Below, piece after piece: positions 4,001-24,532 of a stretch of 32,893 bases of DNA (position 1 is the stretch's first letter; every line of letters begins with the position of its first letter). The stretch comes from Ruminococcus sp. (GTDB taxonomy: Bacteria; Bacillota; Clostridia; Oscillospirales; Ruminococcaceae), in the NCBI GenBank assembly GCA_017441505.1, contig JAFRXL010000052.1, forward strand, positions 1-32,893, written 5' to 3'. Position numbers and translations under genes: made by a program. The notes under the pieces were generated by a model that made no database searches, was not told where the DNA came from, and saw only the letters and a program-made list of their open reading frames with translations.

Positions 4001-4372
4001 CGAGAACAGTACGGTCTTGTTAGCCGCTGTTGACGGGCTTGTTCCTGTCATATCAAACATAATTGTATTGCCGCTGATCTTATGTGTGATAGATGCATTG
4101 TAGGTCGGACAAGTAGCAGACATATCCGATGGGACGATCGGTCCGTCAACTTTCAAGCCGAGGTTTTTAACACTTTTGAGTGCGACACAGTTGTAAACAA
4201 TTATGTCGATCTTTGCAGTAGAACCAGGAGCCACAGTTGCTGCTGAAGCATACCATGTCATCTTACTTGCTTTTCTTAGTTCTGCTGCGATGGATGCCGG
4301 GGTGACGAGACTCAACATCATAGCCATAATGCTAAGCATAAGAGCCGTCAGTCGTTGGATATTCTTTTTCAT
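1046..4372 (-). CDS. Secreted multidomain protein: cohesin-like N-domain, Thr linkers, Ig-like repeats, C-terminal dockerin
   Basis: This 1108-residue protein starts MKKNIQRLTALMLSIMAMML, a Sec signal peptide ending near residue 30. The ATG at 4370-4372 follows GGAGGG; an ORF extension of 28 codons upstream lacks a site. In order: about 38-170, a beta-rich domain ending KNGYINVSG that resembles a cohesin or carbohydrate-binding fold; poly-Thr linker; repeat A1 (about 220-340); Thr linker; two group-3-like Ig domains (motif DKTVYYQLGEKLDLTG); linker; repeat A2; linker; another Ig domain; a Big_2-like domain; and a type I dockerin with two Ca-binding repeats (GDINGDGSVDGTDAG and GDINNDGSIDASDAG). 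There is no catalytic domain, so a structural or adhesion role on a cellulosome-like scaffold is inferred. The gene starts 22 bases after trkH and may share its transcript. Confidence 0.85.
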   Translation of the reverse strand: MKKNIQRLTALMLSIMAMMLSLVTPASIAAELRKASKMTWYASAATVAPGSTAKIDIIVYNCVALKSVKNLGLKVDGPIVPSDMSATCPTYNASITHKISGNTIMFDMTGTSPSTAANKTVLFSVYFNVPAGCPEGKYNVTWQSGDMMASTTTGAAYFPLLKNGYINVSGSGGQVSSSTTKSTTTTTTTTTTTTTTTTTTSTTSTTTATKTTTYIASNDGLKHADVFVNTVSVPYKTIYNVGEDYSANGYKYYIKIDAEYSSGRTGVFEGEYDSRLPYLAYPKDPNGVYNEYPPLLAQFNLDYSAVDKTKAGHYPVYADITFAQRDAGSYHDVAFYIDYVNETTTTTTTTTTTTTTTTTATTTTTTALYLSGSNGRVNIDSEPDNNVYHVGDTLDFTGGSYSALGEIILNTGATTTNSLMKVSMTAADSYFEVSRDGVRVSFRTHVNTSAVNMNKPGEYPVYIELYAGDKFVASNSFKVEVYASVADADLAISINKEPDKTVYYQLGEKLDLTGLEFTYTITGTYTDGDVVTSENKVSYDETAFGDVFVYGGKSYADLMPITLSLDDSQVDNTNVGRYTVYVKLESLGKAVSDSFDVIYVETTTWHTVTADTRTTTTKTQTLPDGFTTTTVPDGGTTTTGPVFFTTTTTYNGLNDGLKHADVFVNTVSKPNKTTFNVGEDYMTNGYIPPVDGYKYYIKVDAEYHSGRTGVFEGEFGYNELHYLSYPKGEYDSYPPLLIRTELDFSAVDKTKAGHYPVYLDITFAQRDAGGYHDVAFYIDYVAPVTSTSTTSTTTTTTATTTVTNTTTHDYGDIPYYDSWSGAITVNKLPDKMFYEAGDELDLTGGTYSASAMVTYSDGTAPSNEVSNVSMTDNEKRFTVYYDYDNGSYPVAHEEHYFIVKVDTSAVDMSKAGEYPVYITLSKTGDSFYITHEAFTVIVEEKETPTIVADEPSEKQTVAGRDVKLTFKTSDGKPVDAITQISSSDNSIAEVNNDGTVIFNKPGMVTISFKGTVGGQTADGKITLNVGLLTGDINGDGSVDGTDAGMVLREYAVLPEDRTFTEAQIKAGDINNDGSIDASDAGDILRYFAEKGAGYEGDDMAEWYKNLKF
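2031..2412 (-). repeat. Intragenic duplicated domain, copy A2
   Basis: This encodes the second copy of a domain running from GLKHADVFVNTVS to YHDVAFYIDYV. It is closely similar to copy A1 at 3354-3721 in DNA as well as protein, for example through ATAGAATGCAACATCGTGAT near the 3' end. This suggests recent duplication or gene conversion within the gene. Confidence 0.8.
3354..3721 (-). repeat. Intragenic duplicated domain, copy A1
   Basis: This is the first copy of the duplicated domain of the dockerin protein. It differs from A2 by a short indel around the YKYYIKIDAEY segment and in the YPKDPNGVYN loop. Both copies are flanked by Thr-codon microsatellites (3285-3350 and 3735-3835 here), which could promote recombination. 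Confidence 0.8.
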
Positions 4373-4394
4373 TTTTGATACCCTCCTGTTTTTT

Positions 4395-5837
4395 TCATAT
4401 AGTTTTTTTTCTAACTGCAAACAACAGTATAACAGGATAGATCTCCAGTCTTCCAAGGAGCATATCGAAGCATAGTACTATCTTTGAGAATGCTTTAAGT
4501 TCACCGAATCCACCAGCCGGTCCAAAGCGTCCCACACCGAAGCCGATGTTGTTCATACAAGTCACGACTGCTGACAGCGACTCCTCAATGGAATACTTGT
4601 CCAATGAGATCAGCAGGAGTGATGTACACATAAGTATAACAAAAAGCACCAGATAGGACAGAGCACCTCTGACAACGCCTTTTTCAACAGGTTTGCCGTC
4701 CATTTTAACTGTTGCAACAGCTCTTGGGTTAATGATGTACTTCAGCTCTTTGATACCTGTCTTTACTATTATCATTATTCTTGAGACTTTCATACCGCCT
4801 CCGGTAGAGCCTGCACACGAACCAACGAACATGAGCAGCAGCATGAGAGTCTGCGAGAATACCGGCCACTGTGCTGTATCAGCCGTAGCAAAGCCGGTCG
4901 ACGTGATAGTAGAAGCGGTCATGAAGAATGCGTGTCTTAAAGCATCCCCGACGCTGTCGTACAAATGGGATATATTTATCGTAATTATAGCGGTAGCAGC
5001 GGCAATTATCCCGAAATACCAATGCACCTCTTCGTTTTTGAAAGCTAAAGCGTATTTGCGTATGATTATATAGTAGTACAGATTGAAATTAACACCGAAA
5101 AGCAGTATAAATACCGCTATAACCATTTCAATGTAAAGGCTGTTGTAGTGACCGATACTGTCACCGTATATCGAGAATCCTCCTGTTCCGGCTGAAGAGC
5201 AGGCATGGATTATCGCATCATACAGCGGCATTCCGCCAAAGAGCAGAAATATCACCTCTGCGGCTGTAAGCGACATATATATACCGTAGAGTATCCTTGC
5301 AGAAAAGCTTGATTTTGAAACAAGTCTTCCCACTTTAGGTCCGGCACACTCTGCTCGCATCATGTGCATCGTCCTCGCATCATTGCTGGACATTATTGCA
5401 AGCACGAACATGAGTATTCCCATACCGCCCAGCCAGTGGGTAAACGCTCTCCAGAAGAGTGAAGCTCTCGACATCGACTCTATATCGCTTAGTATTGTTG
5501 CACCTGTAGTAGTGAAACCTGATACAGTTTCAAACAGAGCACTTGGATAATCCGGTATTTCTCCGGATATAACGAACGGAAGAGCTCCTATCATGGAAAC
5601 TCCTATCCACGAAGCGGCAACGCTTACAAATCCCTCCATGGAAAAAATAGAATTATTTTTTGGTTTCTTAGCAGTTGTAATTATACCGAGAAGCAAAAGA
5701 ATAAGCATAGGTATGCCAAAGGACGTCAAAACATGGTCTTCGCCGTAAATAAACCCTACAAGCATCGGCAGCACCATAGCCAGTCCGGCTACCTTGAATA
5801 TCTGTCCCATAACATAGGTTATCATTCTGTAATTCAT
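4395..5837 (-). CDS. trkH: Trk/Ktr-type potassium channel subunit TrkH
   Basis: This 480-residue polytopic membrane protein of the TrkH/KtrB superfamily is made of four M1-pore-M2 units. The four selectivity-filter segments can be seen: SGFTTTGATI (about 106-115), SSAGTGGFS, TITSTGFAT and NNIGFGVGRFGP. It forms the K+ pathway and is gated by the cytosolic TrkA ring encoded 20 bases upstream at 5858-7216. The ATG at 5835-5837 has a weak GGGGAG site, and the protein starts in the usual way with a hydrophobic helix. Length is normal for the family. Confidence 0.93.
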   Translation of the reverse strand: MNYRMITYVMGQIFKVAGLAMVLPMLVGFIYGEDHVLTSFGIPMLILLLLGIITTAKKPKNNSIFSMEGFVSVAASWIGVSMIGALPFVISGEIPDYPSALFETVSGFTTTGATILSDIESMSRASLFWRAFTHWLGGMGILMFVLAIMSSNDARTMHMMRAECAGPKVGRLVSKSSFSARILYGIYMSLTAAEVIFLLFGGMPLYDAIIHACSSAGTGGFSIYGDSIGHYNSLYIEMVIAVFILLFGVNFNLYYYIIIRKYALAFKNEEVHWYFGIIAAATAIITINISHLYDSVGDALRHAFFMTASTITSTGFATADTAQWPVFSQTLMLLLMFVGSCAGSTGGGMKVSRIMIIVKTGIKELKYIINPRAVATVKMDGKPVEKGVVRGALSYLVLFVILMCTSLLLISLDKYSIEESLSAVVTCMNNIGFGVGRFGPAGGFGELKAFSKIVLCFDMLLGRLEIYPVILLFAVRKKTI

Positions 5838-13059: not shown

Positions 13060-13119
13060 GGTTTACCTCCGAATTATTTTATATTGTATATCAGTAAAAT
13101 AATTATTGAAGAAATATCA

Positions 13120-13200
13120 TCGGTCAAGCCAAGGGATAATAATACGAACAAGCCGTGCCCCTTTTAGGGCTCCCTTTTCTGCGGCTTCGCCGTTTTTTAT
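13120..13200 (+). repeat. Structured intergenic repeat R1 (short form), strand given in terminator-last orientation
   Basis: An 81-base member of the repeat family. It begins CGGTCAAGCC, giving the conserved TCAAG loop on a 2-bp GG/CC stem. It has one central hairpin (GCCC 13157-13160 with GGGC 13167-13170) and ends in CGGC-TTC-GCCG (about 13182-13192) followed by six T. It lacks the longer hairpins of the other copies. It lies between the divergent coaBC and coaX start regions, with its terminator end pointing towards coaX. Confidence 0.7.
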
Positions 13201-13314
13201 AATCAATTTGTAATATGTGATATAATTATACCATGCTTTTTCAAAAAAATCTATAGATTTTTAAATAAAAATATGTTATAATGAAATATATTATATATAT
13301 CGGGAGGAAAAATA

Positions 13315-14088
13315 ATGCTTTTAGCTGTAGATATAGGAAATACAAACGTAGTATTCGGCTGTGTTGACGAAAAAGATGAGGTAGTGCTCTTCGAGAGAAT
13401 ATCTACCAACCACAATGCAACTTCCGCTGAATATGCATCTCTTATAAAGAATATCCTTGAAATGAACAATTTCAATGTCAGTGATATTGATGATGCGATA
13501 ATGTCGTCAGTGGTCCCATCCGTAACCGCAACCGTCAAAGAGGCTATCAGAAAGCTTTTCCACGTTGAAGTAATGATAGCAGGTCCGGGAGTAAAAAACG
13601 GACTCAAGATCCTTATAGACAACCCTGCACAGCTCGGAAGCGATCAGGCTGTAGATGCGGTAGCAGCTATTGACCAGTACCCTGCTCCGCTTATCATAAT
13701 CGACATGGGTACAGCTACTACAGTTTCAGTAGTTGACAGACAAAAGAGCTATCGTGGCGGTCTTATAATGACCGGAATGGCTGTTGCTGCTGATGCACTT
13801 ATCACAAGGACTGCACAGCTGCCTAAGGTCAATTTTGAAGCTCCGTCGCATATAATCGGTACTAACACTATCGACTGCATGAAGAGCGGCTTCCTCTATT
13901 CAAACGCTTGTGCCCTTGACGGCATTATCGAGCGTATCGAAGAAGAGCTTGGCGATAAATGTACTGCTGTTGCTACAGGCGGACTTGCAGAGCTTGTTGT
14001 ACCGCTTTGCAAGCGTGACATTATCCTCGACAGCAATCTGCTCATCAAAGGTCTTGGTATCATCTACCGCAAGAATAAGAAGAAGTAA
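13315..14088 (+). CDS. coaX: Type III pantothenate kinase
   Basis: This 257-residue ASKHA-fold kinase phosphorylates pantothenate in the first step of coenzyme A synthesis. It starts MLLAVDIGNTNVVFG with the phosphate-binding DIGNTN. It then shows NPAQLGSDQAVDAVAA (catalytic Asp), IIIDMGTATTVSVVD, GGLIMTGMAVAADAL, and TGGLAELV near the C-terminus, all in the family order. Type III kinases need a monovalent cation and resist CoA feedback. The ATG at 13315 follows CGGGAGG. A TATAAT at 13277-13282 is the likely -10, with no good -35. Confidence 0.95.
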   Translation: MLLAVDIGNTNVVFGCVDEKDEVVLFERISTNHNATSAEYASLIKNILEMNNFNVSDIDDAIMSSVVPSVTATVKEAIRKLFHVEVMIAGPGVKNGLKILIDNPAQLGSDQAVDAVAAIDQYPAPLIIIDMGTATTVSVVDRQKSYRGGLIMTGMAVAADALITRTAQLPKVNFEAPSHIIGTNTIDCMKSGFLYSNACALDGIIERIEEELGDKCTAVATGGLAELVVPLCKRDIILDSNLLIKGLGIIYRKNKKK

Positions 14089-14147
14089 AAAATACACAGT
14101 GAGCTTTCTGCTTTTGATAATTCAAGTCGAACTCACTGTGTTTTTTG
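14086..14147. terminator. Bidirectional terminator between coaX and the DUF4317 gene
   Basis: ACACAGTGAG (14094-14103) pairs with CTCACTGTGT (14132-14141), a perfect 10-bp stem. It is followed by five further T on the plus strand and preceded by an A run (about 14087-14092) that serves the minus-strand gene ending at 14150. Confidence 0.85.
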
Positions 14148-14149
14148 TT

Positions 14150-15280
14150 TTAATTAAGAGTTACCGGAAGTCCGTTTATTTCAATGGTCGGGTCGTCAAT
14201 ATCTATCAGCAGGCATCTTCTGCCGTCAACAACACTTGTGCGGACTTTATCAGCAGCAGAGGGCTTTATGTTCACGGTTATGCCCGGCGAAGCAAGGACT
14301 GTTTTGCTCTCAACAAGATTAGCGGCTGTAAGCGGAGCTGTACCGCAGACTTTTTCATAAACAGGCTCTACCATCTGCACTCTTTCTTCCGGAACACCAA
14401 TATCGCTCAGCATCTCTTTAAGCTGTAACGGCTCGATAACGGCATTATCAGTCTCATCCTTGCTGTCGTCGACAACTTCCTGTATCTTTTCATTTACAGT
14501 TTTTATCAGCATATAGTCGAGGTCGTCACCGACAACGGATTTCAGTATATTCTGGAAACTGGACTTTTCATTCTCTGCCGACATTACGAAAGTACATCCG
14601 AGAACTTCCTCGATAATGGAGATATTAGGCTTTTTAGCAGATTTAGTGTAGTACATTACGTGGTTCACATCGCTGCTTCTGTTGCTGAAAACAGGGAACA
14701 GGAATCCGTCAGAAGGAGCTTTGCTGATTATCAGTTCGGTATTGAGCTTTTTAGTTATCTCGTTGTTGAAAGAATCGAAAACAAAGCCGTCGCTCGATGT
14801 ATTTACCGGACATATCGCCGTAAGCAGATAGCGATATATTTCGTCCTCGCCGTCAGCAAATTCGTCATTTTTGTCCTTTCTGCGGACCGTATATGTACAG
14901 TATGAGGTAATGACCGCAAAAGGTCCTTCATAGGCGATATGGTTAGCGATGTGGTTGAGGAATTCCTCACAAGCGAGGTCGTCTTTAAGCTCAGAGGTCA
15001 GCAGAGTATAGAGTATATGCTGAGGCTGTCCCTCGTCATAGGCTTCATTCGGGAATTCATATTCTACAAATGATTTTCCCACATTTGTATTAAGTACCTT
15101 TTTCAGAGTCTCGTCATAAACGTCATGTTCCTCAACTGACATTGTGAGACATGAGCTTGAATTGTGATAGCGGACGTTTTTTTCTGCATCTATGAAAGCT
15201 GTAAGAACTCGCTCCATTATGAAAAATCCGATTTTATCGGAGAAATTCTTTTTTATTTCTGCTGTTTCTTTTTTATTCAT
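14150..15280 (-). CDS. DUF4317 family protein
   Basis: This 376-residue soluble protein has the pattern of DUF4317: MNKKETAEIKKNFS at the start, CTYTVRRKDKNDE, YRYLLTAICPVNTSSDGF, SDGFLFPVFSNRSSDVNHVMYYTKS, and a C-terminal region after GDDLDYMLIK. The family is common in clostridia and has no established function. No signal peptide or membrane segment is visible. It is monocistronic, with a promoter at 15313-15341 (TTGAAA, 17 bases, TATAAT) and a shared terminator. Repeat R2 with its terminator end lies directly upstream. Confidence 0.75.
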   Translation of the reverse strand: MNKKETAEIKKNFSDKIGFFIMERVLTAFIDAEKNVRYHNSSSCLTMSVEEHDVYDETLKKVLNTNVGKSFVEYEFPNEAYDEGQPQHILYTLLTSELKDDLACEEFLNHIANHIAYEGPFAVITSYCTYTVRRKDKNDEFADGEDEIYRYLLTAICPVNTSSDGFVFDSFNNEITKKLNTELIISKAPSDGFLFPVFSNRSSDVNHVMYYTKSAKKPNISIIEEVLGCTFVMSAENEKSSFQNILKSVVGDDLDYMLIKTVNEKIQEVVDDSKDETDNAVIEPLQLKEMLSDIGVPEERVQMVEPVYEKVCGTAPLTAANLVESKTVLASPGITVNIKPSAADKVRTSVVDGRRCLLIDIDDPTIEINGLPVTLN

Positions 15281-15312
15281 AATGTTCTCCCTTCGATTGG
15301 TGGATAAGTTAT

Positions 15313-15341
15313 ATTATACTATATGGGGAGAAAAATTTCAA
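15313..15341 (-). promoter_or_regulatory. DUF4317 gene promoter
   Basis: On the minus strand there is TTGAAA (15336-15341), a 17-base spacer and TATAAT (15313-15318). The T run of the repeat R2 terminator ends within about 10 bases of the -35 box, so readthrough transcription from the right would stop just before this promoter. Confidence 0.8.
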
Positions 15342-15360
15342 GCAAAATAAAAAATAAAAG

Positions 15361-15579
15361 AAAAACCGCCGGAGGCGGACATAATGAGAGTCCAGAGAGA
15401 GGTTCTCTCTCTGGCGGTAGGGTGTACGAGGTTTCCCCTACCAGCGGTAGGGGATGTCAGCTTGCTGACAGGGGTGGCTGGACCCGATTAGGGTACAGAG
15501 TTCCCCCTAAAGAGTAGTAAAAACAGCGTAGCGAGTTTTTACGGACCGACAGCATCGCTCCCCTCGGCTTGACCGACGC
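15361..15579 (-). repeat. Structured intergenic repeat R2 (long form)
   Basis: Read on the minus strand it begins with CGG-TCAAG-CCG (about 15565-15575). It continues with an 8-bp stem GTAAAAAC (15517-15524) with GTTTTTAC (15535-15542) around a 10-base loop, a hairpin containing TCT, and two extra hairpins (TGTCAGC with GCTGACA; CCCCTACC with GGTAGGGG). Next comes a 10-bp stem CCAGAGAGAG (15392-15401) with CTCTCTCTGG (15405-15414). It ends in CCGCC-TCC-GGCGG (15366-15378) and a T-rich run. A TGCCAGTCAAG remnant of a facing copy follows its other end at about 15589-15599. No ORF in it is convincing. Confidence 0.8.
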
Positions 15580-15635
15580 AATAAATTATGCCAGTCAAGA
15601 TTGATAAAAACCGTATGTTACACTGATATATATAC

Positions 15636-15664
15636 TGGAAATAGAATAAAAAATGTGGTATAAT
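15636..15664 (+). promoter_or_regulatory. Promoter of the C39-like/cca/pflA operon
   Basis: TGGAAA (15636-15641), a 17-base spacer and an extended -10 TGG-TATAAT (15659-15664). The start site would be near 15671, leaving a leader of about 13 bases. Confidence 0.72.
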
Positions 15665-15683
15665 GGTAATGAAGGTGAGAATA

Positions 15684-16043
15684 ATGGAAAATATAAGATA
15701 TATTCATGAACCCACTGATTTACAGTGCGGACAGGCAGTGCTTGCGATGATACTCGGAAAGAGTGTGGAAGAAATAGTCACATTCCTTGATAATGACCGT
15801 GAAACCACTCTTAAAGAGATGAAATACGTGCTCAGACATTTCGGATGCAGGATGTCTGATGAAAGAATACAGGTCAGCGACCGCTCGGAGCTTCCGGAGC
15901 TTTGTGTGCTTAGTCTGGAAACTCCGAGATGCTGGCATTGGTCGCTTTATGCTTATGGGACTTTTTACGACCCTGAACATGGGGTAATGGATGATTTTCC
16001 GGAGTCCGGCAGACGGTACTGCTGGAAAGTAGAAAGAGGGTGA
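15684..16043 (+). CDS. Small C39-like (papain-fold) cysteine peptidase homologue
   Basis: This 119-residue protein matches the peptidase C39-like pattern: LQCGQAVLAMIL (Cys15), then CWHWSLYAYGTFYDPEHG with His85 and Asp96. The putative Cys-His-Asp triad is intact. There is no signal peptide, membrane segment or transporter domain, so it is not a bacteriocin exporter. A housekeeping or regulatory cysteine peptidase or amidase is possible. An upstream in-frame ATG at 15663 lies within the -10 box, so the ATG at 15684, after GAAGGTGAG, is the start. It is first in an operon with cca four bases downstream. Confidence 0.75.
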   Translation: MENIRYIHEPTDLQCGQAVLAMILGKSVEEIVTFLDNDRETTLKEMKYVLRHFGCRMSDERIQVSDRSELPELCVLSLETPRCWHWSLYAYGTFYDPEHGVMDDFPESGRRYCWKVERG

Positions 16044-16047
16044 TGTT

Positions 16048-17358
16048 CTGGATAAAAAAAGCAAAGAGCTTCTCATAAAGTTGGAGAATGCCGGATATGA
16101 GGCTTACTATGTCGGCGGATGCGTCAGGGACTCTATCATGGGCCGCAGTATGCATGACATCGACATAACAACATCAGCAAGACCAGAACAGACTATTGCT
16201 GTTTTCGGTGAGGAAAACATAATCCCTACAGGACTTAAACATGGTACTGTTACGGTGTGGAAGGAATATGAAGTAACCACTTATCGCATTGACGGTGATT
16301 ACAGTGACAGCCGCCGTCCGGATGAGGTGCACTTCACGGGTGATATAAATGAAGACCTCGCTCGCCGTGACTTTACAATGAATGCTATAGCTATGGATGT
16401 GCGGGGAGATATGGTCGACCCATTCGGGGGCAGGGACGATATTTCAGCCGGAGTCATACGCTGTGTAGGTGAACCGGAAAAACGTTTTGGTGAGGACGCT
16501 CTTCGTATACTTCGTGCAGTAAGATTTGCCTCTCAGCTTGGATTCTCCATAGAACCGAAAACGAGTACAGCCATACACAGTATGTGCGGAGAACTGAAAA
16601 AAATCTCCGCAGAGCGTGTGCGTGAGGAGCTGGACAAGCTCATTTGCGGCAAGGGTGCTGTTGATGTACTGCTGGAATACAGTGATGTGATACTCTCTGT
16701 GATACCGGAATTTGCTTCGAGTATTGGCTTTGACCAGCGTTCACCATATCATAAGTACACGGTATGGGAGCATATACTCAGAGCTATGGAGACAGCTCCG
16801 GAAAAAGATATGGTGCTCAGAAGAGCTCTTTTCTTCCACGATATTGCCAAGCCTGCGTGTGCTGCTTTCGATGAAACAGGAAGAGGACATTTCAAAGGTC
16901 ACGACAGTGTCGGTGCTGATATGACAAGAGAAATAATGAAAAGACTTCGTTACGACAGCAAGTCCATAGAGACAACGTTCAGACTCATTGCAAATCACAG
17001 TGCAAAGCTCCGCACGAAAGCTGATGTCAAACGTATGATGAACAGTATAGGCGATGAACTGTTTTTTGTACTTATGGAAATGAAAAAGTGCGATAATCTG
17101 GGAAAAAATGAATTCGTAGCTGAGGAAAATATCTTTTTCGATGAACTTATCTCTATAGGACATGAGATAGTCGATAATGACCAGTGCCGGACAGTCTCCG
17201 GACTTGCTGTGAATGGAAGTGACCTTATCGCTGCCGGATTCAGAGGATGTGTGATAGGTGAGATATTGGATGAACTGCTCGAAAAGGTGATAACAGAAGA
17301 ACTGCCTAATGACAGGACAGCTCTGCTTGAATATACAAGGAGGAATAAAAATGCTTAA
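16048..17358 (+). CDS. cca: CCA-adding enzyme (tRNA nucleotidyltransferase) with HD domain
   Basis: This 436-residue class II nucleotidyltransferase adds or repairs the tRNA 3' CCA. Motifs: AYYVGGCVRD, the metal pair in HDIDITTS, GTVTV, RRDFTMNAIAMD, GEDALRILRAVRFASQLGF, then an HD phosphohydrolase domain (FFHDIAKP, HFKGHD). The N-terminus needs about 11 residues before AGYEAYYVGG. No ATG or GTG is in frame there. CTG at 16048 follows AGAGGGTGATGTT at the right distance and gives LDKKSKELLIKLENAGYEAYY, so I use it. The alternative TTG at 16081 lacks a ribosome binding site and would cut the first helix. It overlaps pflA by 8 bases. Confidence 0.88.
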   Translation: MDKKSKELLIKLENAGYEAYYVGGCVRDSIMGRSMHDIDITTSARPEQTIAVFGEENIIPTGLKHGTVTVWKEYEVTTYRIDGDYSDSRRPDEVHFTGDINEDLARRDFTMNAIAMDVRGDMVDPFGGRDDISAGVIRCVGEPEKRFGEDALRILRAVRFASQLGFSIEPKTSTAIHSMCGELKKISAERVREELDKLICGKGAVDVLLEYSDVILSVIPEFASSIGFDQRSPYHKYTVWEHILRAMETAPEKDMVLRRALFFHDIAKPACAAFDETGRGHFKGHDSVGADMTREIMKRLRYDSKSIETTFRLIANHSAKLRTKADVKRMMNSIGDELFFVLMEMKKCDNLGKNEFVAEENIFFDELISIGHEIVDNDQCRTVSGLAVNGSDLIAAGFRGCVIGEILDELLEKVITEELPNDRTALLEYTRRNKNA

Positions 17359-18091
17359 AGGACGGATACATTCTACAGAGAGTTTCGGAACGGTAGATGG
17401 TCCTGGAGTACGTTTTGTTGTGTTTTTTCAGGGATGTCCGCTGAGGTGCAAATACTGTCACAACCCCGATACATGGGCTTTCGACGGCGGCAGAGAAGTG
17501 ACCGCAGAGGAGCTCCTGAAAGAGTATGATTCATATAAAGAATTCCTGAGATCAGGCGGAATAACTGCTACAGGCGGCGAGCCGCTCGCTCAGCCGGAGT
17601 TTCTTGCAGAGCTTTTCCGCATGGCTAAAGGGAAAAAAATACACACCTGTCTTGATACTTCCGCAGGATGTTTCGATCCGAATAATACTGCAAAAGTCGA
17701 CGAGGTGCTTGAATATACCGATCTCGTTATGCTTGATATAAAACATATCGATGATGAGGAGCATAAGAAGCTCACGGGACATACAAACCGCAATATACTT
17801 GCGTTTGCTGAATATCTGAGAGATAAGGGCATACCTGTCTGGATAAGACACGTAGTAGTGCCGGGGATAACTGACGATGAGGGAGAACTTTTTCGCCTTG
17901 GGGAGTTTCTTGCGACACTGAAGAATCTTAAAGCATTGGATGTGCTGCCTTATCATGATATGGCGAAGCCGAAATATGAAAATTTAGGTATAGAGTATCC
18001 ACTCGGAGACACTCCGCCGCTGACGAAAGAGGAAGCAATAAAGGCGAGGGAGATAATAATAAAAGGGATAAAATCAGGACTAAAAAAATAA
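17351..18091 (+). CDS. pflA: Pyruvate formate-lyase activating enzyme (radical SAM)
   Basis: This 246-residue radical SAM activase starts MLKGRIHSTESFGTVDGPGVRFVVFFQGC and has the 4Fe-4S motif CPLRCKYCHNPDTW (CxxxCxxC, about residues 31-38). GGITATGGEPLAQ and VVPGITDDEGEL follow. It generates the glycyl radical on pyruvate formate-lyase in fermentation. The ATG at 17351 follows AAGGAGGAATAAA and overlaps the cca stop by 8 bases, suggesting translational coupling. An upstream in-frame start at 17309 is not needed. No pflB is in the window, so the partner lies elsewhere. Confidence 0.94.
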   Translation: MLKGRIHSTESFGTVDGPGVRFVVFFQGCPLRCKYCHNPDTWAFDGGREVTAEELLKEYDSYKEFLRSGGITATGGEPLAQPEFLAELFRMAKGKKIHTCLDTSAGCFDPNNTAKVDEVLEYTDLVMLDIKHIDDEEHKKLTGHTNRNILAFAEYLRDKGIPVWIRHVVVPGITDDEGELFRLGEFLATLKNLKALDVLPYHDMAKPKYENLGIEYPLGDTPPLTKEEAIKAREIIIKGIKSGLKK

Positions 18092-18094
18092 GAG

Positions 18095-18316
18095 AAAAAA
18101 ACGCCGAAGGCGGGCATAATGAGAGTCCAGAGAGAGGTTCTCTCTCTGGCGGGAAGGTGTACGAGGTTACCCCTACCAGCGGTAGGGGATGTCAGCTTGC
18201 TGACAGGGGTGGCTGGACCCGATTAGGGTGGGCAGAGCCCTTCCTAAGAAGCAGTCCAGCGAGCAAAGCAACGCTGGACGGACGGCTCGTAGTACTTGTC
18301 CCAGCTTGACTGGCGT
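18095..18316 (-). repeat. Structured intergenic repeat R3a (long form, subtype II tail)
   Basis: Read on the minus strand it begins with CCAG-TCAAG-CTGG (about 18302-18314). It has the 8-bp stem GTCCAGCG (18254-18261) with CGCTGGAC (18272-18279), again with a 10-base loop but a different arm sequence from R2. The two extra hairpins and the 10-bp CCAGAGAGAG stem (18127-18149) match R2. It ends in CGCC-TTC-GGCG (18102-18112) plus a T run that lies against the pflA stop codon. Confidence 0.8.
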
Positions 18317-18327
18317 AATAAATAAGA

Positions 18328-18357
18328 GTGAACCGTATTTTAGGTTCACCCTTTTTG
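18328..18357 (+). terminator. Probable pflA operon terminator between R3a and R3b
   Basis: GTGAACC (18328-18334) pairs with GGTTCAC (18343-18349), followed by CCTTTTTG. It separates the two facing repeat copies and is the first plus-strand terminator after pflA. Confidence 0.65.
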
Positions 18358-18519
18358 TCGGTCAAGCCGAGGAAAGCAAATGCGGACGGTCCGTAAAAAC
18401 TCGCTACGCTGTTTTTACTACTTCTGAGGGAAGGCTCTGCCTTCCCTCGCACACCCTACCGCCAGAGAGAGAACCTCTCTCTGGACTCTCGTTATGTCGC
18501 CTTCGGCGTTTTATTTTTT
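18357..18519 (+). repeat. Structured intergenic repeat R3b (medium form)
   Basis: It begins GTCGG-TCAAG-CCGAGG. It has the stem GTAAAAAC (18393-18400) with GTTTTTAC (18411-18418), then GAGGGAAGGC (18426-18435) with GCCTTCCCTC (18439-18448) around loop TCT. The 10-bp CCAGAGAGAG stem (18462-18484) follows, and it ends in CGCC-TTC-GGCG (18498-18508) with a T-rich run to 18519. It faces R3a, so the terminator ends of the pair point outward to the 3' ends of pflA and tyrS. Confidence 0.8.
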
Positions 18520-18529
18520 CTTTTCTTTT

Positions 18530-19747
18530 TTATTTAACTACAACTTTCTTGAAAGCCTTCTTGCCCTTGCGGACTATTGTCTCACCTTCAAGCTTTATCT
18601 GTGCTTTAGCATCTGTCATCTTCTCATCATTTACTGTGATTCCACCCTGCTGTACAAGTCTTCTTGCCTCTGATACAGAAGGTGCAAGTCCGGACTTTAC
18701 AAGCAGATTGAGAAGACCAATGCATCCGTCAGTAAGGTCAGCTGAGTCTATCTCTGCTACAGGCATATTTGCGTCATTACCGCTTCCGCCAAAGAGTGCC
18801 TTAGCTGCTGCCTTAGCTTTTTCAGCTTCCTCTTCGCCGTGAACAAGCTTTGTGAGCTCGTAAGCAAGAAGCTCCTTAGCTGCATTAAACTGAGCTCCTT
18901 CCATTGTCTTTTCCATTTCCTCTATCTGCTCTACAGGAACGAATGTGAGCATTTTAAGACACTTGATAACGTCAGCATCAGCAACATTTCTCCAGTACTG
19001 GAAGAATTCGTATGGAGAAGTTTTTTCTGGATCGAGCCATACTGCTCCCTTTTCGGTCTTGCCCATTTTCTTGCCCTCAGAATTGAGGAGAAGTGTGATA
19101 GTCATTGCGTAAGCATCCTTGCCGAGCTTTCTCCTTATGAGCTCTGTGCCGCCGAGCATATTTGCCCACTGGTCATCTCCGCCGAACTGCATATTGCATC
19201 CGTACTTCTGGAAGAGTTCGAGGAAGTCGTAGCTCTGCATTATCATGTAGTTGAATTCGAGGAAAGTGAGTCCTCTTTCCATTCTCTGCTTGTAGCACTC
19301 GTGTGAGAGCATACGGTTAACGCTGAAATGAGCTCCGACATCACGGAGAAGCTCGATGTAATTGAGCTTCATGAGCCAGTCTGCATTGTTTACGATTATA
19401 GCCTTGTCATCAGCAAAGTCGATGAAACGGCTCATCTGCTTCTTGAAGCAGTCAACGTTGTGCTGGATAGTCTCAGGAGTCATCATTTTACGCATATCAG
19501 TTTTGCCGGAAGGGTCACCTATCATTGCAGTACCGCCGCCAATGAGTACGATAGGCTTGTTTCCTGCCATCTGGAGTCTCTTCATAAGACAGAGTGCCAT
19601 GAAGTGACCTACGTGGAGTGAGTCTGCTGTTGGGTCAAAGCCGATGTAGAATGTAGCTTTTCCGGCATTAACAAGCTCCTCTATCTCTTTTTCGTCTGTG
19701 AGCTGTGCAAGCAGCCCTCTGCGTTTGAGTTCTTCAAAAGTAGTCAT
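18530..19747 (-). CDS. tyrS: Tyrosyl-tRNA synthetase
   Basis: This 405-residue class I synthetase charges tRNA-Tyr. It has [21 protein letters not shown] (HIGH-like HVGH), [25 protein letters not shown], the KMSKS-like GKKMGKT, and a C-terminal S4 RNA-binding domain ([19 protein letters not shown]). The ATG at 19745-19747 follows AAGGAGAA at a good distance; a TTG two codons upstream is less likely. A T-box leader (19872-20110) and promoter precede it, so expression should rise with uncharged tRNA-Tyr. Its 3' end abuts the terminator end of repeat R3b. Confidence 0.97.
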
Positions 19748-19871
19748 AATCAAATTCTCCTTGTTTTTATTTTATTATTAATGTATTTTCATTTGATTTG
19801 ATGCAATAAGCCATGAGCTCGTTTTCTGACCTCATTTTTATCACGACCTTCCATTTATGATACCATTAACT

Positions 19872-20110
19872 AAAAAACCCCCGTACAGAATTACTGTACG
19901 AGGACGAATTTACTCGTGGTACCACCCCGGTTCGCCGGACTTCCGCCCGACCTCTTTAAGCTGTAACGGGCTTACCCGTCCGCACCTACTTCAAGTTCAG
20001 CACGACTGCTCCGGGATGTAGCTCCTGTGACTGCATTGTTTCCTCCCACCTACCGGAAACTCTCTGAAAATGCTCCTCGCCACGGTTTATTCCCTTCATC
20101 GCCTTTATTT
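19872..20110 (-). promoter_or_regulatory. T-box riboswitch upstream of tyrS
   Basis: The minus strand carries AGAGAGT near the 5' end, a structured stem I region and the T-box core GGGGTGGTACCACGAG (19913-19928). Then comes a terminator stem (arms about 19878-19888 and 19894-19903, CGTACAG/CTGTACG) followed by six T (19872-19877). Unpaired tRNA CCA ends bind the T-box core and favour the antiterminator. A TAC (Tyr) triplet at 20018-20020 is a possible specifier; I do not assign it firmly. Confidence 0.93.
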
Positions 20111-20115
20111 CTTCT

Positions 20116-20145
20116 ATAATATCACACTTCTCACCGGTCTGTCAA
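20116..20145 (-). promoter_or_regulatory. tyrS promoter
   Basis: On the minus strand there is TTGACA (20140-20145), an 18-base spacer and TATTAT (20116-20121), which places the start site just upstream of the T-box. Confidence 0.78.
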
Positions 20146-20185
20146 GCATAATTATTGTTAACATATAAAAATATTAGTCCCCCTA

Positions 20186-20214
20186 TTGACTTTCTGCACG
20201 CTTTGTTGTATAAT
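20186..20214 (+). promoter_or_regulatory. tRNA-Thr promoter
   Basis: TTGACT (20186-20191), a 17-base spacer and TATAAT (20209-20214), ending 19 bases before the tRNA. Confidence 0.88.
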
Positions 20215-20232
20215 ATTATTCGTTGAGTTGGT

Positions 20233-20308
20233 GCTGATGTGGCACAGTCGGTAGCGCAACGCCTTGGTAAGGCGTAGGTCGTCGGTTCAAGTCCGATCAT
20301 CAGCTCCA
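20233..20308 (+). tRNA. tRNA-Thr (anticodon GGT)
   Basis: A 76-base cloverleaf: acceptor GCTGATG (20233-20239) pairs fully with CATCAGC (20298-20304). The D arm contains GTCGGTAGC, the anticodon arm is ACGCC-TTGGTAA-GGCGT with GGT, and the T arm is GTCGG-TTCAAGT-CCGAT. The discriminator is T and CCA is encoded. Confidence 0.97.
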
Positions 20309-20310
20309 CG

Positions 20311-20345
20311 AAAAAAGCGGTTCAGTTAATCTGAGCCGCTTTTTA
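20311..20345 (+). terminator. tRNA-Thr terminator
   Basis: GCGGTTCAG pairs with CTGAGCCGC (one wobble) around TTAAT, flanked by A and T runs. It follows the tRNA directly, so this is a single-gene tRNA unit. The A run means it may also work on the minus strand. Confidence 0.9.
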
Positions 20346-20383
20346 TTTTACCATTTTCAATAAAATCAAATAAAACTATATTT

Positions 20384-20608
20384 TTATACTCCTAATACAG
20401 CCAGTACTATTACATCTTTTGCTGGTGCCATTATATTTTTTACTTCCTGATGTAAATAATAGCCAAGCTGATCTTCACTAATTTCTGTTATTAAGCTATC
20501 CTTTTCGGAATCATATGCTCTTAAAGTTATGATATTGCCATCACTAAATTTAAATATGCCTACTTTGATATCTTCACGAATAAGATTTAATACATCAAAA
20601 ACTACCAT
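20384..20608 (-). CDS. Small protein of unknown function
   Basis: A 74-residue ORF that I do not recognise. It starts MVVFDVLNLIREDIKVGIFKFSDGNIITLRAY and ends in a hydrophobic stretch VIVLAVLGV. AGAGGTG precedes the ATG at 20606-20608. Codon use is AT-rich compared with the surrounding housekeeping genes. It lies in an islet just after tRNA-Thr together with another small ORF on the same strand. It may be an adaptor or a remnant of acquired DNA. No clear domain or transmembrane helix is seen. Confidence 0.5.
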   Translation of the reverse strand: MVVFDVLNLIREDIKVGIFKFSDGNIITLRAYDSEKDSLITEISEDQLGYYLHQEVKNIMAPAKDVIVLAVLGV

Positions 20609-20682
20609 AGAAACACCTCTTTTTTATTTGTATAAATTATAAATATTTATATATCTTTATGATTTGAATTGATTTTAACTAA

Positions 20683-20874
20683 TCACCTAAGTTGCCAGTA
20701 ATCACATCGTTGCTGACTTGCACTTGTATAAGTTGCTCCGCTATTACGATTCAGACATATGCTTCGATAACTGTCAAAAAAGCGGCACGTTCTGCATGAA
20801 CTAAGGTTTGCAGCAATATTCTTTTTTAGTTGTTGCTTCATGTTATACTTGTTTTTGTTTCCAAATAGTCCCAT
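20683..20874 (-). CDS. Small cysteine-rich protein
   Basis: A 63-residue ORF I do not recognise. It starts MGLFGNKNKYNMKQQLKKN and carries four Cys as CRTC, then SICLN nine residues later and RCDYW near the C-terminus. This spacing suits binding a metal or Fe-S centre. AGGAGGTATATT is a strong ribosome binding site for the ATG at 20872-20874. It precedes the 74-residue ORF on the same strand with a 74-base gap, so the two may be cotranscribed. A possible -35 (TTGACA, 20960-20965) upstream lacks a well-spaced -10. Confidence 0.6.
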   Translation of the reverse strand: MGLFGNKNKYNMKQQLKKNIAANLSSCRTCRFFDSYRSICLNRNSGATYTSASQQRCDYWQLR

Positions 20875-21156
20875 ATAATATACCTCCTATAAACGTCATA
20901 AATTCGTTTTAGAAAGAGCTCGTTTCTTTTACGCTATACAAAGTATACCATTTTTTTTTTGTCAATAGAATATGGTAAAATAGTATATTTTTGTAAAGAT
21001 TCCCAAAAAAGAATGATATCAATTATTAGAAATTGATGAAACCAACAAAACTTAAAGATTGATTATTTAATAAATTTCTAACATATATGCTATCCATGCA
21101 TACTTGTACCTTCTTGTGAATAAGATATAACAAAGCAAAAATCAAGGAGGTCACCC
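20875..21156. other. AT-rich intergenic region upstream of the sipL-like gene
   Basis: No coding signal is seen. It holds a ten-T homopolymer (20951-20960) and a near-palindrome around GTATAC (20933-20949) upstream of the Cys-rich ORF. Two weak plus-strand promoter candidates precede the sipL-like gene: TTGTAC (21104-21109) with TATAAC (21126-21131), and CATACTTG at about 21099-21106, which resembles a sigma-E -10 box without a clear -35. Confidence 0.35.
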
Positions 21157-22710
21157 ATGGAATTTAAGATAAACCGAGAGACAGTACCTGCGGCAGAGTG
21201 CATATATGACGGCATACAGGAGCAGAGTGTAGAACTGGACTACATACTTCCCGACTATTATCCTGATATATTCAGACTTATCCGTTGTCGGATAGAGCCG
21301 GTGATAACGAACAGCTCAGTAAATGGGGATAAGCTGAATTACGAGCTTCGCTGTGACATAAAGGTGCTTTACTGCGGAGAAGAAGATACAGTGATACGCA
21401 GTGTAAGTCAGACGCAGAGTTTCACAAAGACGGTGGACATAGGGAGAAACTGTGATAATGCAGCGATAGAACTTACTCCAAAGACCGGCTTTGTGAACTA
21501 CAGGGCAGTAAACAAACGACGTCTTGATATAAGGGGAGCGGTATCGGTCAAGATAAAAGTGACCGGTGAAAAGGAGCAGGAGGTCATAACAGATGCAGAG
21601 GGAATGAATATCCAGCTGAGAAAAATGCCTGTACGTTTTGCGTCAAAGACCACGACCATAGAAAAGGTAATGCGGATAAGTGAAGAGACAGAGCTTTCAC
21701 CTGCCCAGCCTTCTATAATGAGCATAATAGGAGTACGCTGTACTGCAAACGATATTGAGAACAAGCTTATATCCGGAAAACTTCTTGTTAAGGGAGAGAT
21801 TGAAGCGAAAGTACTTTACGCCTGTGAAAGTGACGGCGAAGGTGCAGCGGAGCTTATGGTATTTTCGCTGCCATTCAGTCAGATAATGGATATAGATGAA
21901 ATAGACGAGAGTTTTGATTGCAGTATAACTACAGAGGTGGTCAGCTGTGATGTAACACCGGCATCCGGAAAAAACGGGGATAACAGGATGCTGAGATGTG
22001 AAGCTGAGCTCAGGATAAAATGCAGTGCGGTAAAGACGGGTTCAGCGATGCTGGTAACGGACGCATACTCCACAGTATATCCCTGTGAATTGTCTGTATC
22101 AGAGATAAAGACCGAGCAGATACCAGTCATATATAATGAAAGTTTCCGCAGCAATGTCCGTATAGCGGAGGGGGATCAGATGCCGGAGACTGTATATGCG
22201 ATGTGGTGTGTGCCGAAGAATATAAATACACGCATTGCCGACGACGGTCACAACGTAGTAATAACAGGTATGCTGACATACTCAATGGCAGCAAAGGATG
22301 CATCAGGTATGATGATAATGCCTGACAAGGACGAAGCATTTGAAGAGACTATCGACCTCGGAGATGACATATCCGGAAGTACTATAACAGCCGATATAAA
22401 GGTGCGGGAGGTATCATATAATATCACATCAGAGGGAGTATTGTCGGCAAAGGCAGATATATCGGCAGAAATATCGGTTTCGGGCAGTTCAGTAGTAAAT
22501 GCTGTAACTGATATATCTATTGATGATACTGCGAAGAAAGAACGTGACGGCGACTATTCGATGAAGCTGTACTATGGTGCTGAAAATGAGGATATATGGG
22601 ACATCGCAAAGCGTTACAGCACAAGTGTTGACGCTGTAAGAGAGGAAAATGACATTGACGGAGACAAAATAGAAAACGGCGGTATGCTTCTCATACCCAT
22701 TATAAATTGA
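21157..22710 (+). CDS. sipL: SipL-like spore coat assembly protein (DUF3794/SPOCS plus LysM)
   Basis: This 517-residue protein has SPOCS (DUF3794) segments: the opening with ELDYILPDYYPDIFRLIRCRIEP, then repeats including ISEETELSPAQPSIMSIIG. It ends in a LysM domain (YYGAENEDIWDIAKRYSTSVDAVREENDIDGDKIENGGMLLIP). This matches SipL of Clostridioides difficile in length and layout. There SipL binds SpoIVA through the LysM domain to build the coat base on the forespore. The next gene is spoIVA, 22 bases downstream, which strongly supports the call. The start follows AAGGAGGTCACCC. The gene should be expressed in the mother cell. Confidence 0.85.
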   Translation: MEFKINRETVPAAECIYDGIQEQSVELDYILPDYYPDIFRLIRCRIEPVITNSSVNGDKLNYELRCDIKVLYCGEEDTVIRSVSQTQSFTKTVDIGRNCDNAAIELTPKTGFVNYRAVNKRRLDIRGAVSVKIKVTGEKEQEVITDAEGMNIQLRKMPVRFASKTTTIEKVMRISEETELSPAQPSIMSIIGVRCTANDIENKLISGKLLVKGEIEAKVLYACESDGEGAAELMVFSLPFSQIMDIDEIDESFDCSITTEVVSCDVTPASGKNGDNRMLRCEAELRIKCSAVKTGSAMLVTDAYSTVYPCELSVSEIKTEQIPVIYNESFRSNVRIAEGDQMPETVYAMWCVPKNINTRIADDGHNVVITGMLTYSMAAKDASGMMIMPDKDEAFEETIDLGDDISGSTITADIKVREVSYNITSEGVLSAKADISAEISVSGSSVVNAVTDISIDDTAKKERDGDYSMKLYYGAENEDIWDIAKRYSTSVDAVREENDIDGDKIENGGMLLIPIIN

Positions 22711-22732
22711 AAAAATTGAAAAGGAGCATAAC

Positions 22733-24208
22733 ATGGTAAAAGATATATACAGCAATATCGCCGAACGTACAGGCGGTGACATTTACATAGGCGTAGTTGG
22801 ACCCGTAAGAACAGGCAAGTCCACCTTTATAAAGAGGTTTATGGAAACTCTGGTCATACCTAATATATCCGGAGGTTATAAGCGTGAAAGAGCTATAGAT
22901 GAACTTCCGCAGTCGGCAGCAGGAAAAACTATCATGACCACAGAACCTAAATTCATACCGGAGGAAGCGGTTACAGTTGATTTAGGTGACGGAGCGGGAT
23001 TCCGTGTGCGTCTGATAGACTGCGTGGGGTATATAGTTCCAAGTTCACTGGGATACATAGAAAACGAGCAGCCAAGAATGGTCATGACTTCGTGGTTCGA
23101 TGAAGAGATACCGTTCAATATGGCTGCTGAGATAGGTACTCAGAAGGTAATAACAGACCACTCAACAATTGGTCTTGTAGTGACTACTGACGGCTCTATA
23201 TCAGATATTCCAAGAGAGGAATATCAGGAGTGCGAAGAGAGAGTTATCCGTGAGCTTAAAGAGCTCGGCAAGCCGTTTGTGGTGATACTGAACTCTCTTA
23301 CGCCGGATTCACCTGAAACAAAAGCACTTGCTGATGAGCTTACAGACCGATATGATGCAAAAGTTTTGCCGGTAAGCTGCCTTGAACTCGATGAGGACAA
23401 CATCCGTGATATAATGCGTGAGATACTCTTTTCTTTCCCGATAAAAGAGATAAATATCCGTACAGCAAGGTGGATAAACACTCTTGAAAAGGGTCACTGG
23501 CTTAAAGACGAGATACAGAATTGTATCCGCAATGCTGCAAAGGACATCAAGATAGTCAGAGAGGCTGCAAGTGCCGCAGAAGCTATGAGCGACTGTCCGC
23601 ATATACTCAAAGCGGAGGTTGCTTCAATAGATCTCGGAAAAGGCTCTGTGACCATAAATGCCGAGCTGGACAGTTCACTTTTTTATAAGATACTCGGAGA
23701 AACTACCGGTATAGAGATAGAAAGTGAAAGCGACCTCATGCCGCTGCTCACGGAGCTTAACGAGATAAGACGCAAGTATCAGAGGATAGAGCCTGCACTT
23801 GCAGAGGTCGAAGCTACCGGCTATGGCATAGTTATGCCGGAGCTCGATGAACTGACTCTTGAAGAGCCTAAGATAATCCGACAGGGCGGAAAATACGGAG
23901 TAAGACTGAAAGCTTCCGCACCGTCTATACATCTCATGAAGGCGAATATCAATACGACAGTAAGCCCGATAGTCGGGACTGAAAAGCAGTCAGAGGAACT
24001 TGTGATGTATCTGCTTGACGGTTTTGATGATGATCCGAAAAAAATATGGGAATCGAATATATTTGGAAAGTCACTGCATGAGCTGGTGAATGAGGGACTG
24101 CACAGTAAGCTCTACAAGATGCCGAATGATGCGAGAATGAAGATACAGGAGACACTTGAAAGGGTAATAAATGACGGCTGCAGCGGCTTGATATGTTTTA
24201 TACTATGA
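22733..24208 (+). CDS. spoIVA: Stage IV sporulation protein A (spore coat basement ATPase)
   Basis: This 491-residue protein is the coat-anchoring ATPase SpoIVA. It starts MVKDIYSNIAERTGGDIYIGVVGPVRTGKSTF with a Walker A motif (GPVRTGKST, 23-31). It has RLIDCVGY and the Switch-like DHSTIGLVVTTDGSI, and ends ICFIL like family members, whose C-terminus contacts the membrane anchor SpoVM. Length is the family norm (about 492). It polymerises around the forespore using ATP. AAGGAGC precedes the ATG. With the sipL-like gene it forms a two-gene operon. Confidence 0.97.
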   Translation: MVKDIYSNIAERTGGDIYIGVVGPVRTGKSTFIKRFMETLVIPNISGGYKRERAIDELPQSAAGKTIMTTEPKFIPEEAVTVDLGDGAGFRVRLIDCVGYIVPSSLGYIENEQPRMVMTSWFDEEIPFNMAAEIGTQKVITDHSTIGLVVTTDGSISDIPREEYQECEERVIRELKELGKPFVVILNSLTPDSPETKALADELTDRYDAKVLPVSCLELDEDNIRDIMREILFSFPIKEINIRTARWINTLEKGHWLKDEIQNCIRNAAKDIKIVREAASAAEAMSDCPHILKAEVASIDLGKGSVTINAELDSSLFYKILGETTGIEIESESDLMPLLTELNEIRRKYQRIEPALAEVEATGYGIVMPELDELTLEEPKIIRQGGKYGVRLKASAPSIHLMKANINTTVSPIVGTEKQSEELVMYLLDGFDDDPKKIWESNIFGKSLHELVNEGLHSKLYKMPNDARMKIQETLERVINDGCSGLICFIL

Positions 24209-24214
24209 AAAAGA

Positions 24215-24380
24215 AAAAATAAAAAACGGCGAAGCCGACAATAACGGGATTCCAAAGGGTTATTTAACCCTTTGGCAAGGAGGTGTGCGAGGGGGAACAG
24301 AGTTCCCCCTCAAGAGTAGTAAAAACAGCGTAGCGAGTTTTTACGGACCGTCCGCATTGCTTCCCTCGGCTTGACCGACG
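24215..24380 (-). repeat. Structured intergenic repeat R4a (medium form)
   Basis: Read on the minus strand it begins CGG-TCAAG-CCG (about 24367-24377). It has the stem GTAAAAAC (24319-24326) with GTTTTTAC (24337-24344), then GAGGGGGAAC (24289-24298) with GTTCCCCCTC (24302-24311) around TCT. A 10-bp stem CCAAAGGGTT (24252-24261) with AACCCTTTGG (24266-24275) sits where the other copies have CCAGAGAGAG. It ends in CGGC-TTC-GCCG (24227-24237) plus a T-rich run reaching the spoIVA stop. The substituted arms still pair. Confidence 0.8.
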
Positions 24381-24389
24381 GAAATATTA

Positions 24390-24441
24390 TGCCAGTCAAG
24401 CTGGGGAGAGTAATGCGAGCCGTCCGTCCAGCGTTGCTTTC
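24390..24441 (+). repeat. Truncated repeat R4b (subtype II tail only)
   Basis: Plus-strand sequence starting TGCCAGTCAAGCTGGG and running through GAGCCGTCCGTCCAGCGTTG to GCTTT matches the minus strand of R3a over about 50 bases, then stops in the middle of the 8-bp stem. It faces R4a and lacks the 3' half and terminator. Confidence 0.7.
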
Positions 24442-24532
24442 TTGATGCACTTTACTTAAAACATATCATCGTAACTTGAATTTGTTCATAATTTGTTTGC
24501 TGAGAAAAGTACCTTGAGTATATATTTTTACC

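Follow-up and report, generated by a model that had tools for sequence, protein, structure and literature searches.

A modular five-hairpin repeat family in Ruminococcus with hairpin alleles that differ between orthologous copies

Several intergenic regions of a Ruminococcus sp. contig carry a repeat in which the arms of ordered hairpins vary in sequence and stay paired, and the question raised by this locus is what kind of element produces such a pattern. We analysed a stretch of 32,893 nucleotides (contig JAFRXL010000052.1, assembly GCA_017441505.1; hereafter the window) together with its own genome, a multi-contig draft that is about 80% complete, and with related genomes. A preliminary description of the window had argued that compensating changes in at least four helices point to selection on a folded molecule. 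The broader issue is how such changes should be read: stems in a family of repeats may covary because whole hairpins have been exchanged, and covariation over dispersed copies alone is no proof of selection on RNA.

Repeat copies in the window and architecture of the unit

The repeat unit, which we call R, is ~160 nt long and runs from head to tail through an A-rich run, hairpins H1 and H2, a purine-rich linker, and hairpins H3, H4, and H6. H1 consists of CG followed by a variable pair, with the loop GAA in most copies. H2 is mostly of the CCAAAGGG or CCAGAGAG type, H3 has four main alleles in the window's own genome, and H4, which has a 10-nt loop, is mainly of the GTAAAA, GTCCAG, or GTACAG type. 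The tail hairpin H6 has the loop CTTGA and occurs as version a (TCGG/CCGA) or version b (CCAG/CTGG). Long R units additionally contain I1, a hairpin-rich insert of 63 nt in the 5′ arm of H3, and a few units carry a second insert, I2, in the H2 loop. The purine tracts preceding H2 and H3 resemble 5′ arms, and the 3′ arms might be their partners. Across genomes, the order of the hairpins, the linkers, and the loops are kept. Predicted as RNA, the plus strand of R4a folds with an energy of -67.5 kcal/mol, where shuffles gave -43.85 (sd 3.8; z -6.2), and the minus strand with -65.4 kcal/mol (z -4.9).

A covariance model built from 32 short copies of the own genome, R3b and R4a among them, recovered R2, R3a, R3b, and R4a as full copies (Table 1), in agreement with the preliminary description, and the alternative arms and 10-base H4 loop reported there are present as claimed. 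The truncated copy R4b was also upheld, as a tail fragment with a blast match to positions 171-220 of R3a. R1, by contrast, had been listed as a copy at 13120-13200 and is merely a degenerate remnant in which H2 to H4 are unrecognisable in the sequence. R2 and R3a are long because I1 is inserted in the 5′ arm of H3; this insert had not been separated before, and the lengths of both copies contain it. R3a and R3b are the first and second members of one tail-to-tail pair, and a hairpin of the same type as the linker between them adjoins other R copies too. The type-b tail remnant facing R2 forms with it the junction that is seen in tail-to-tail pairs.

Table 1. Repeat copies, nested inserts, and associated hairpins in the window. 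G588 is the syntenic genome compared below; the last column gives the covariance model match.
Feature	Position	Strand	Description	Model match
R1	13119-13197	-	Degenerate remnant: tail hairpin, H1 hairpin, and T run	28.5 bits, E 6.7e-5
R2	15361-15579	+	Full long copy, tail type a	15362-15577, 131 bits
I1 in R2	15432-15494	+	Nested 63-nt insert within H3	
Type-b tail remnant facing R2	15590-15599	-	Sequence GCCAGTCAAG	
R3a	18095-18316	+	Full long copy, tail type b	18097-18314, 134.5 bits
I1 in R3a	18167-18229	+	Nested 63-nt insert within H3; orthologous G588 copy without I1	
Linker hairpin	18326-18351		GAGTGAACC/GGTTCACCC, between R3a and R3b	
R3b	18357-18519	-	Full short copy, tail type a	18357-18513, 164.1 bits
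R4a	24215-24380	+	Full short copy, tail type a	24222-24379, 178.3 bits
R4b	24390-24441	-	Fragment of a type-b copy (part of H4 and tail), facing R4a	39 bits within a longer match, 24391-24486

Copy number and distribution

The R family is not confined to the window, as dozens of copies are dispersed in the genome and other genomes of the genus match. The model alignment excluded two atypical copies (L004:1766-1936 and L010:3122-3282) and the 17 long ones. At E≤0.01, the model gave 86 matches in the 2.24-Mb draft, with 63 at 1.3e-32 or better. Under strict filters, 21 of 60 genomes matched at E≤0.001, all of them within the 36 genomes of the genus, and none of the 24 genomes from other genera matched the model. 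The best E was below 1e-15 in eight of the 36 (G000, G008, G011, G016, G019, G023, G030, and G035), and 13 further genomes of the genus matched more weakly (E≤0.001). In a sample of 391 genomes of the class, G000 and three others matched at E≤1e-5, the three all weakly, and in these three an H2-H3-like part was visible by eye.

The statement that no named family matches was borne out: Rfam had no match over the repeats, whether for the whole window at gathering scores or for 15300-24500 at E≤1. We found no description of the family in the literature searched, which was that of open PubMed Central, and a DNA search with R2 gave no match in phages or plasmids.

Pairing, covariation, and strand bias

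Pairing of the hairpin arms was nearly complete. In the 32 own-genome copies, 97.8% of 1096 cells pair, compared with 33.0%-53.6% when the partners are slid by 1-3 columns. Across 140 copies from eight genomes (74 of them from the own genome), the five ordered hairpins were paired in 96.0% of 4438 cells, and two-sided changes occurred in 33 of 34 pairs. They involved 760 cells; column shuffles gave 189.2, and none of 500 reached the observed count. These numbers overstate the independent evidence, since the copies are related to one another and their alignment was a fit to the model. The input for this set was 100 loci, with the weak loci L107-L111 and duplicate loci excluded.

Two-sided changes were found in all five helices, and the compensating changes reported earlier in at least four helices are thus real. 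The argument drawn from them, that they speak for selection on the fold, does not hold as it was worded: the arms change as whole alleles (two-sided versus one-sided changes were 185 versus 5 in the 32 own-genome copies), and orthologous copies swap hairpins, as described below. A modest form of it is supported by the mispairs. Read on the head-to-tail strand, the 140 copies contain 81 G·T and 23 A·C mispairs. Counting distinct helix alleles, which is less sensitive to copy number, gave 39 G·T versus 15 A·C (p 0.0015), under our own assumption that mutation alone would produce the two in equal numbers. The excess was found in H2 and H3 (27 to 3), whereas H1, H4, and H6 together gave 12 to 12. 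The fold of the head-to-tail strand therefore appears relevant in H2 and H3, and the excess lends modest support to the view that selection may favour this folding, in RNA or in single-stranded DNA, through these two helices only.

Gene context and terminator form

Counts of gene context, T runs, and strand cover most model matches, with the weakest rows excluded, and context was scored where a single copy had gene calls on both sides. Among such copies, the head points toward the 3′ end of a gene in 37 of 50 from relatives, at a median of 13 nt, and in 20 of 35 from the own genome (median 21.5). The reverse orientation, seen in 13 of 50 and 15 of 35 single copies, respectively, counts against the explanation that we favour below.

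When units are read from tail to head, at least six T occur in the 9 nt after H1 at 100 of 128 heads, compared with 2 of 128 on the tail side. A GC-rich hairpin followed by a T run is the form of an intrinsic terminator, which these 100 heads have on the tail-to-head strand, and judging from this form H1 with its U tract probably ends transcription that proceeds in the tail-to-head direction. Of 12 tail-to-tail pairs, only 3 lie between convergent genes and nine between codirectional genes (in the same loci, 11 of 107 other gene pairs are convergent), so the pairs are not chiefly terminators for convergent genes and the terminator role is argued from form alone.

The two tails of a pair were always a and b, in 16 of 16 pairs in the own genome and 8 of 8 in G588, some of them orthologous. 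Like tails (a-a or b-b) would give a long, unstable palindrome, which may be why only unlike tails are paired. Dimers of unlike REPs predominate in most REP families, without an obvious explanation in the available part of the source (PMC3733652).

Differences between orthologous copies

G588 is syntenic with the own genome, with long aligned stretches at 92%-98% identity, and we paired 13 orthologous copies by hand from this synteny, excluding the ambiguous locus at L014 12189 and any unit that one of the genomes lacked or had replaced. All 13 copies differ between the two genomes. At least one whole hairpin allele differs in 8 of the 13 and the presence of I1 in 5 of the 13, and two others are slightly different; an apparent H1 difference at L014:10571 is an alignment artefact. 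The 150-nt flanks that could be compared, 14 in number, are 89%-99% identical, and two more are incomparable since the unit is missing there.

Differences ranged from single inserts to whole pairs. For the copy at L014:10402-10558, the clearest case, the G588 counterpart carries I2 (H2 loop) and I1 (H3) and is otherwise the same, and the partner of this copy differs by I1; in these units I1 takes the place of two bases, AA or AG depending on the allele. At site A, H2, H3, and H4 are all changed, and the flank up to H1 is almost unaltered. The R3 pair is inverted in G588 together with its linker hairpin, in which one paired base is altered on both sides, and in the L006:15044/15213 pair the two tails are swapped relative to G588. 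These whole-allele swaps, insert differences, and the R3 inversion indicate that hairpins move as units, and the observed covariation is partly owed to the exchange of whole hairpins. Within the own genome, 64 full-length copies represent 54 haplotypes. Among them, we found no linkage between H2 and H3 or between H3 and H4; H4 is linked with H6, and H1 with H2, H4, and H6.

Presence, absence, and terminal repeats

Whole units also vary between the two genomes. The copy at L014:5873-6089, which has imperfect terminal inverted repeats of 31 bp, is absent from the syntenic site in G588; this is the sole clean empty site, and it has 7 extra bases and no readable target duplication. At sites A, B, and D, one unit of a pair is missing in the own genome or in G588, and the junction at site D lies at short repeats common to H1 and the tail. 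At the position of R4, G588 has a different repeat family, followed by the flank that adjoins R2 in the own genome, which points to a rearrangement with its ends at R elements. These observations add to rumen Ruminococcus a large repeat family associated with inversions and rearrangements that distinguish close relatives.

Many R copies are without terminal repeats. In the own genome, both terminal repeats lie within 10 of 29 mismatches of the consensus in 12 of 38 single copies, and the best of 300 random placements in this test was 11. A terminal-repeat pattern had 11 matches in the genome, all beside R copies, and its reversed control had none. No terminal repeat was found away from R copies that would mark an autonomous partner, an absence that is weak in a draft about 80% complete.

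Interpretation and alternative explanations

On balance, we think it reasonably probable that R is a non-coding, non-autonomous, recombining mosaic repeat of Ruminococcus that is BOX-, REP-, or MITE-like and probably terminator-like. Units would spread by a transposase acting in trans, and modules would be exchanged among the many copies by recombination or template switching. Copies may persist at gene ends because they are tolerated there. Both compared genomes are drafts, in which misjoined repeats could fake some of the mosaics, and this counts against our reading.

Similar elements are described in other bacteria. In the available part of PMC3049150, the BOX elements of Streptococcus pneumoniae are small intergenic repeats of modular build, bounded by terminal inverted repeats and predicted to fold stably as RNA, and the SPRITE elements of the same species are terminator-like and located near the 3′ ends of genes, with repeats inserted in one another. 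R shares with this group a small, intergenic, modular build, terminal inverted repeats, a terminator-like form, and nested repeats. It differs from BOX and SPRITE, as far as that text goes, in its genus, its five-hairpin architecture, the exchange of hairpin alleles between orthologous sites, and the nested inserts of 57-63 nt; we set it apart from BOX by this description, with no Rfam match. Like MITEs, as portrayed in the available part of PMC10969869, R is short and non-coding, varies in presence and absence, and has terminal inverted repeats in a subset of copies. Unlike for MITEs, no partner transposon was found for R and no target duplication could be read at the one clean empty site, and many copies have no terminal repeats.

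A more tentative possibility is that R constitutes a recombining hairpin-cassette system, in which whole hairpins are exchanged and inverted between fixed chromosomal sites faster than the surrounding DNA mutates, by an activity on the conserved linkers or the hairpins. I1 and I2 would then act as minute hairpin transposons, inserting into hairpin arms and loops and, in frame, into protein genes.

We consider it unlikely that R is primarily a functional RNA, with each copy a 3′-UTR element (a terminator, mRNA-end protector, or protein-binding site) selected at its own site and its spread incidental. The excess of G·T on one strand of H2 and H3, the position of heads just after stop codons, and the stable RNA folds of R4a are what such an element would show. 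However, the sites are not conserved: at the tyrS loci of 30 genomes, R copies occur only in the window's own genome, with a weak H2-like fragment in G030, and these loci are patchy, with no clean empty site among them. Additionally, hairpin alleles are freely swapped at single sites, and H1, H4, and H6 have no strand bias.

Less probable again is a REP/BIME-like role at the DNA level, in which the hairpins would be single-stranded substrates folded for an HUH (Y1, RAYT) transposase. R does resemble REPs, which in the available part of PMC3733652 are palindromic, mostly extragenic, and often arranged as inverted dimers of unlike members; the plus strand of R4a also folds stably as DNA (z -6.0), and Y1 genes are present in 14 of the 36 genomes of the genus (E≤0.001). 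Yet Y1 searches gave nothing in the copy-rich genomes G019 and G035, and the own genome has one doubtful match of 23.6 bits inside a frame of 4124 aa, all three genomes being incomplete. We rejected Y1 as the partner of R, as its presence did not follow R copy number. A conserved GTAG (or CGTC) tag was also rejected, since the bases beside H4 vary in the 32 copies (AGTAG, AGCAG, AATAG, and ACAG); type-a tails have G next in many copies, not all. R differs from REP/BIME sequences in its five hairpins in fixed order, in having no conserved GTAG tag, and in having no consistent Y1 partner.

It seems improbable, too, that pairing arose without selection, with palindrome arms corrected against each other by template switching and perfect hairpins left as a mutational by-product. 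The rarity of one-sided changes in the own genome agrees with this process. So does the short form of H3: in one orthologous pair, both alleles have a 3′ arm complementary to the dinucleotide (AA or AG) that I1 displaces. The conservation of hairpin order, linkers, and loops across genomes and the strand specificity of the G·T over A·C excess speak against it. Finally, misassembly of drafts with many near-identical repeats is a very improbable source of the mosaic alleles and inversions: both genomes are multi-contig drafts and G588 is a metagenome assembly, but the differences recur in every one of the 13 orthologous copies, some consist of a clean insert with the remainder of the unit identical, and unlike tails are retained in 24 of 24 pairs.

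Nested I2 element

I2 is a hairpin element of 57-60 nt that is present in R. flavefaciens FD-1 and in many Ruminococcus records. Its core pattern was found in 74 stretches of the named genome collection, in 72 distinct contexts, of which some are R-type hairpins, some other sequence, and some genes. At L255, a phage-type cytosine methylase contains two in-frame I2 copies of 19 residues, and a Ruminococcus phage homologue is without them. Relaxases at L208 and L233 have a common I2 copy of 20 residues that homologues such as L265 do not have, and the plasmid relaxase of R. albus 7 gave no alignment across the I2 position. A third I2 hairpin that copies the target sequence would fit the two methylase sites and does not fit the copies in H2 of the own genome.

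The nested I2, and only this part of the system, is like Rickettsia palindromic elements, which the available part of PMC10969869 describes as hairpin elements lying in frame within unrelated protein genes. In the same text, those elements are about 150 bp long, whereas I2 has 57-60 nt, also occurs inside R hairpins, and has Clostridia hosts; R units themselves lie outside genes, unlike the Rickettsia elements. If truly mobile, I2 would be a very small element capable of in-frame insertion into protein genes, and named isolates that carry it, R. flavefaciens FD-1 for example, offer a place to study the repeats. At L190 and L226, the reading frames on either side of I2 seem to differ.

I2 insertions in protein genes

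Copies of I2, the nested hairpin element of 57–60 nt found, for example, in the H2 loop of the R repeat, were also present within protein genes. A phage-type DNA methylase gene holds two in-frame copies (L255 5878–7950), and a relaxase gene holds one, likewise in frame (L208 1–1146; L233 2893–3615). I2 adds 19–20 residues to the methylase and relaxase that are absent from their homologues. Two further host genes (L190 1494–1910 and L226 863–1390) were assigned from protein sequence, and we take one to be amidoligase-like and the other RAYT/Y1 transposase-like. I2 lies antisense within the latter gene, and the frames flanking I2 at these two loci are apparently unlike each other.

The third hairpin of I2, a stem closed by a loop of the GTT/GGTTA/GTAA type, differs between sites (L186–L259). 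At both methylase sites, the 3′ stem of this hairpin seems to be derived from the target. Within the I2 copy of the H2 loop, there appears to be an extra hairpin stretch at L004 (1598–1936) and L014 (12189–12532), and insertion therefore seems to be nested to three levels at these loci.

Structure and rearrangement of R elements

The purine tracts directly before hairpins H2 and H3 are similar, by eye, to the 5′ arm that follows (window 15361–24380), so the 3′ arm of each hairpin might have a second partner in the preceding tract.

A near-perfect palindrome at L103 (1223–1451) consists of two R heads joined within I1, the 63-nt insert nested in the H3 5′ arm, as if a tail-to-tail pair of R units had lost its middle. 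We also compared window positions 24215–24441 and 15280–15360 with L286 8270–8700 in the near relative G588, where a different repeat family comes after the gene that precedes R4, with R2-adjacent sequence beyond it. This arrangement is a rearrangement ending at R elements.

Other features

The end of the large protein with threonine-rich stretches seems dockerin-like.

Additional features of the window
Feature	Position	Strand	Remarks
T-box leader	19897–20108	minus	upstream of tyrS reading frame
tRNA-Thr (GGT) gene	20233–20308		
Large protein	1046–4456		long threonine-rich stretches and repeated modules

In relatives, tyrS is followed by another type of palindrome that starts with GTAGGG (L063, L067, L068 and L079), namely GTAGGGGCGGCCATTGGCCGCCC and variants differing in their stems, which is reminiscent of the GTAG-tagged REPs.
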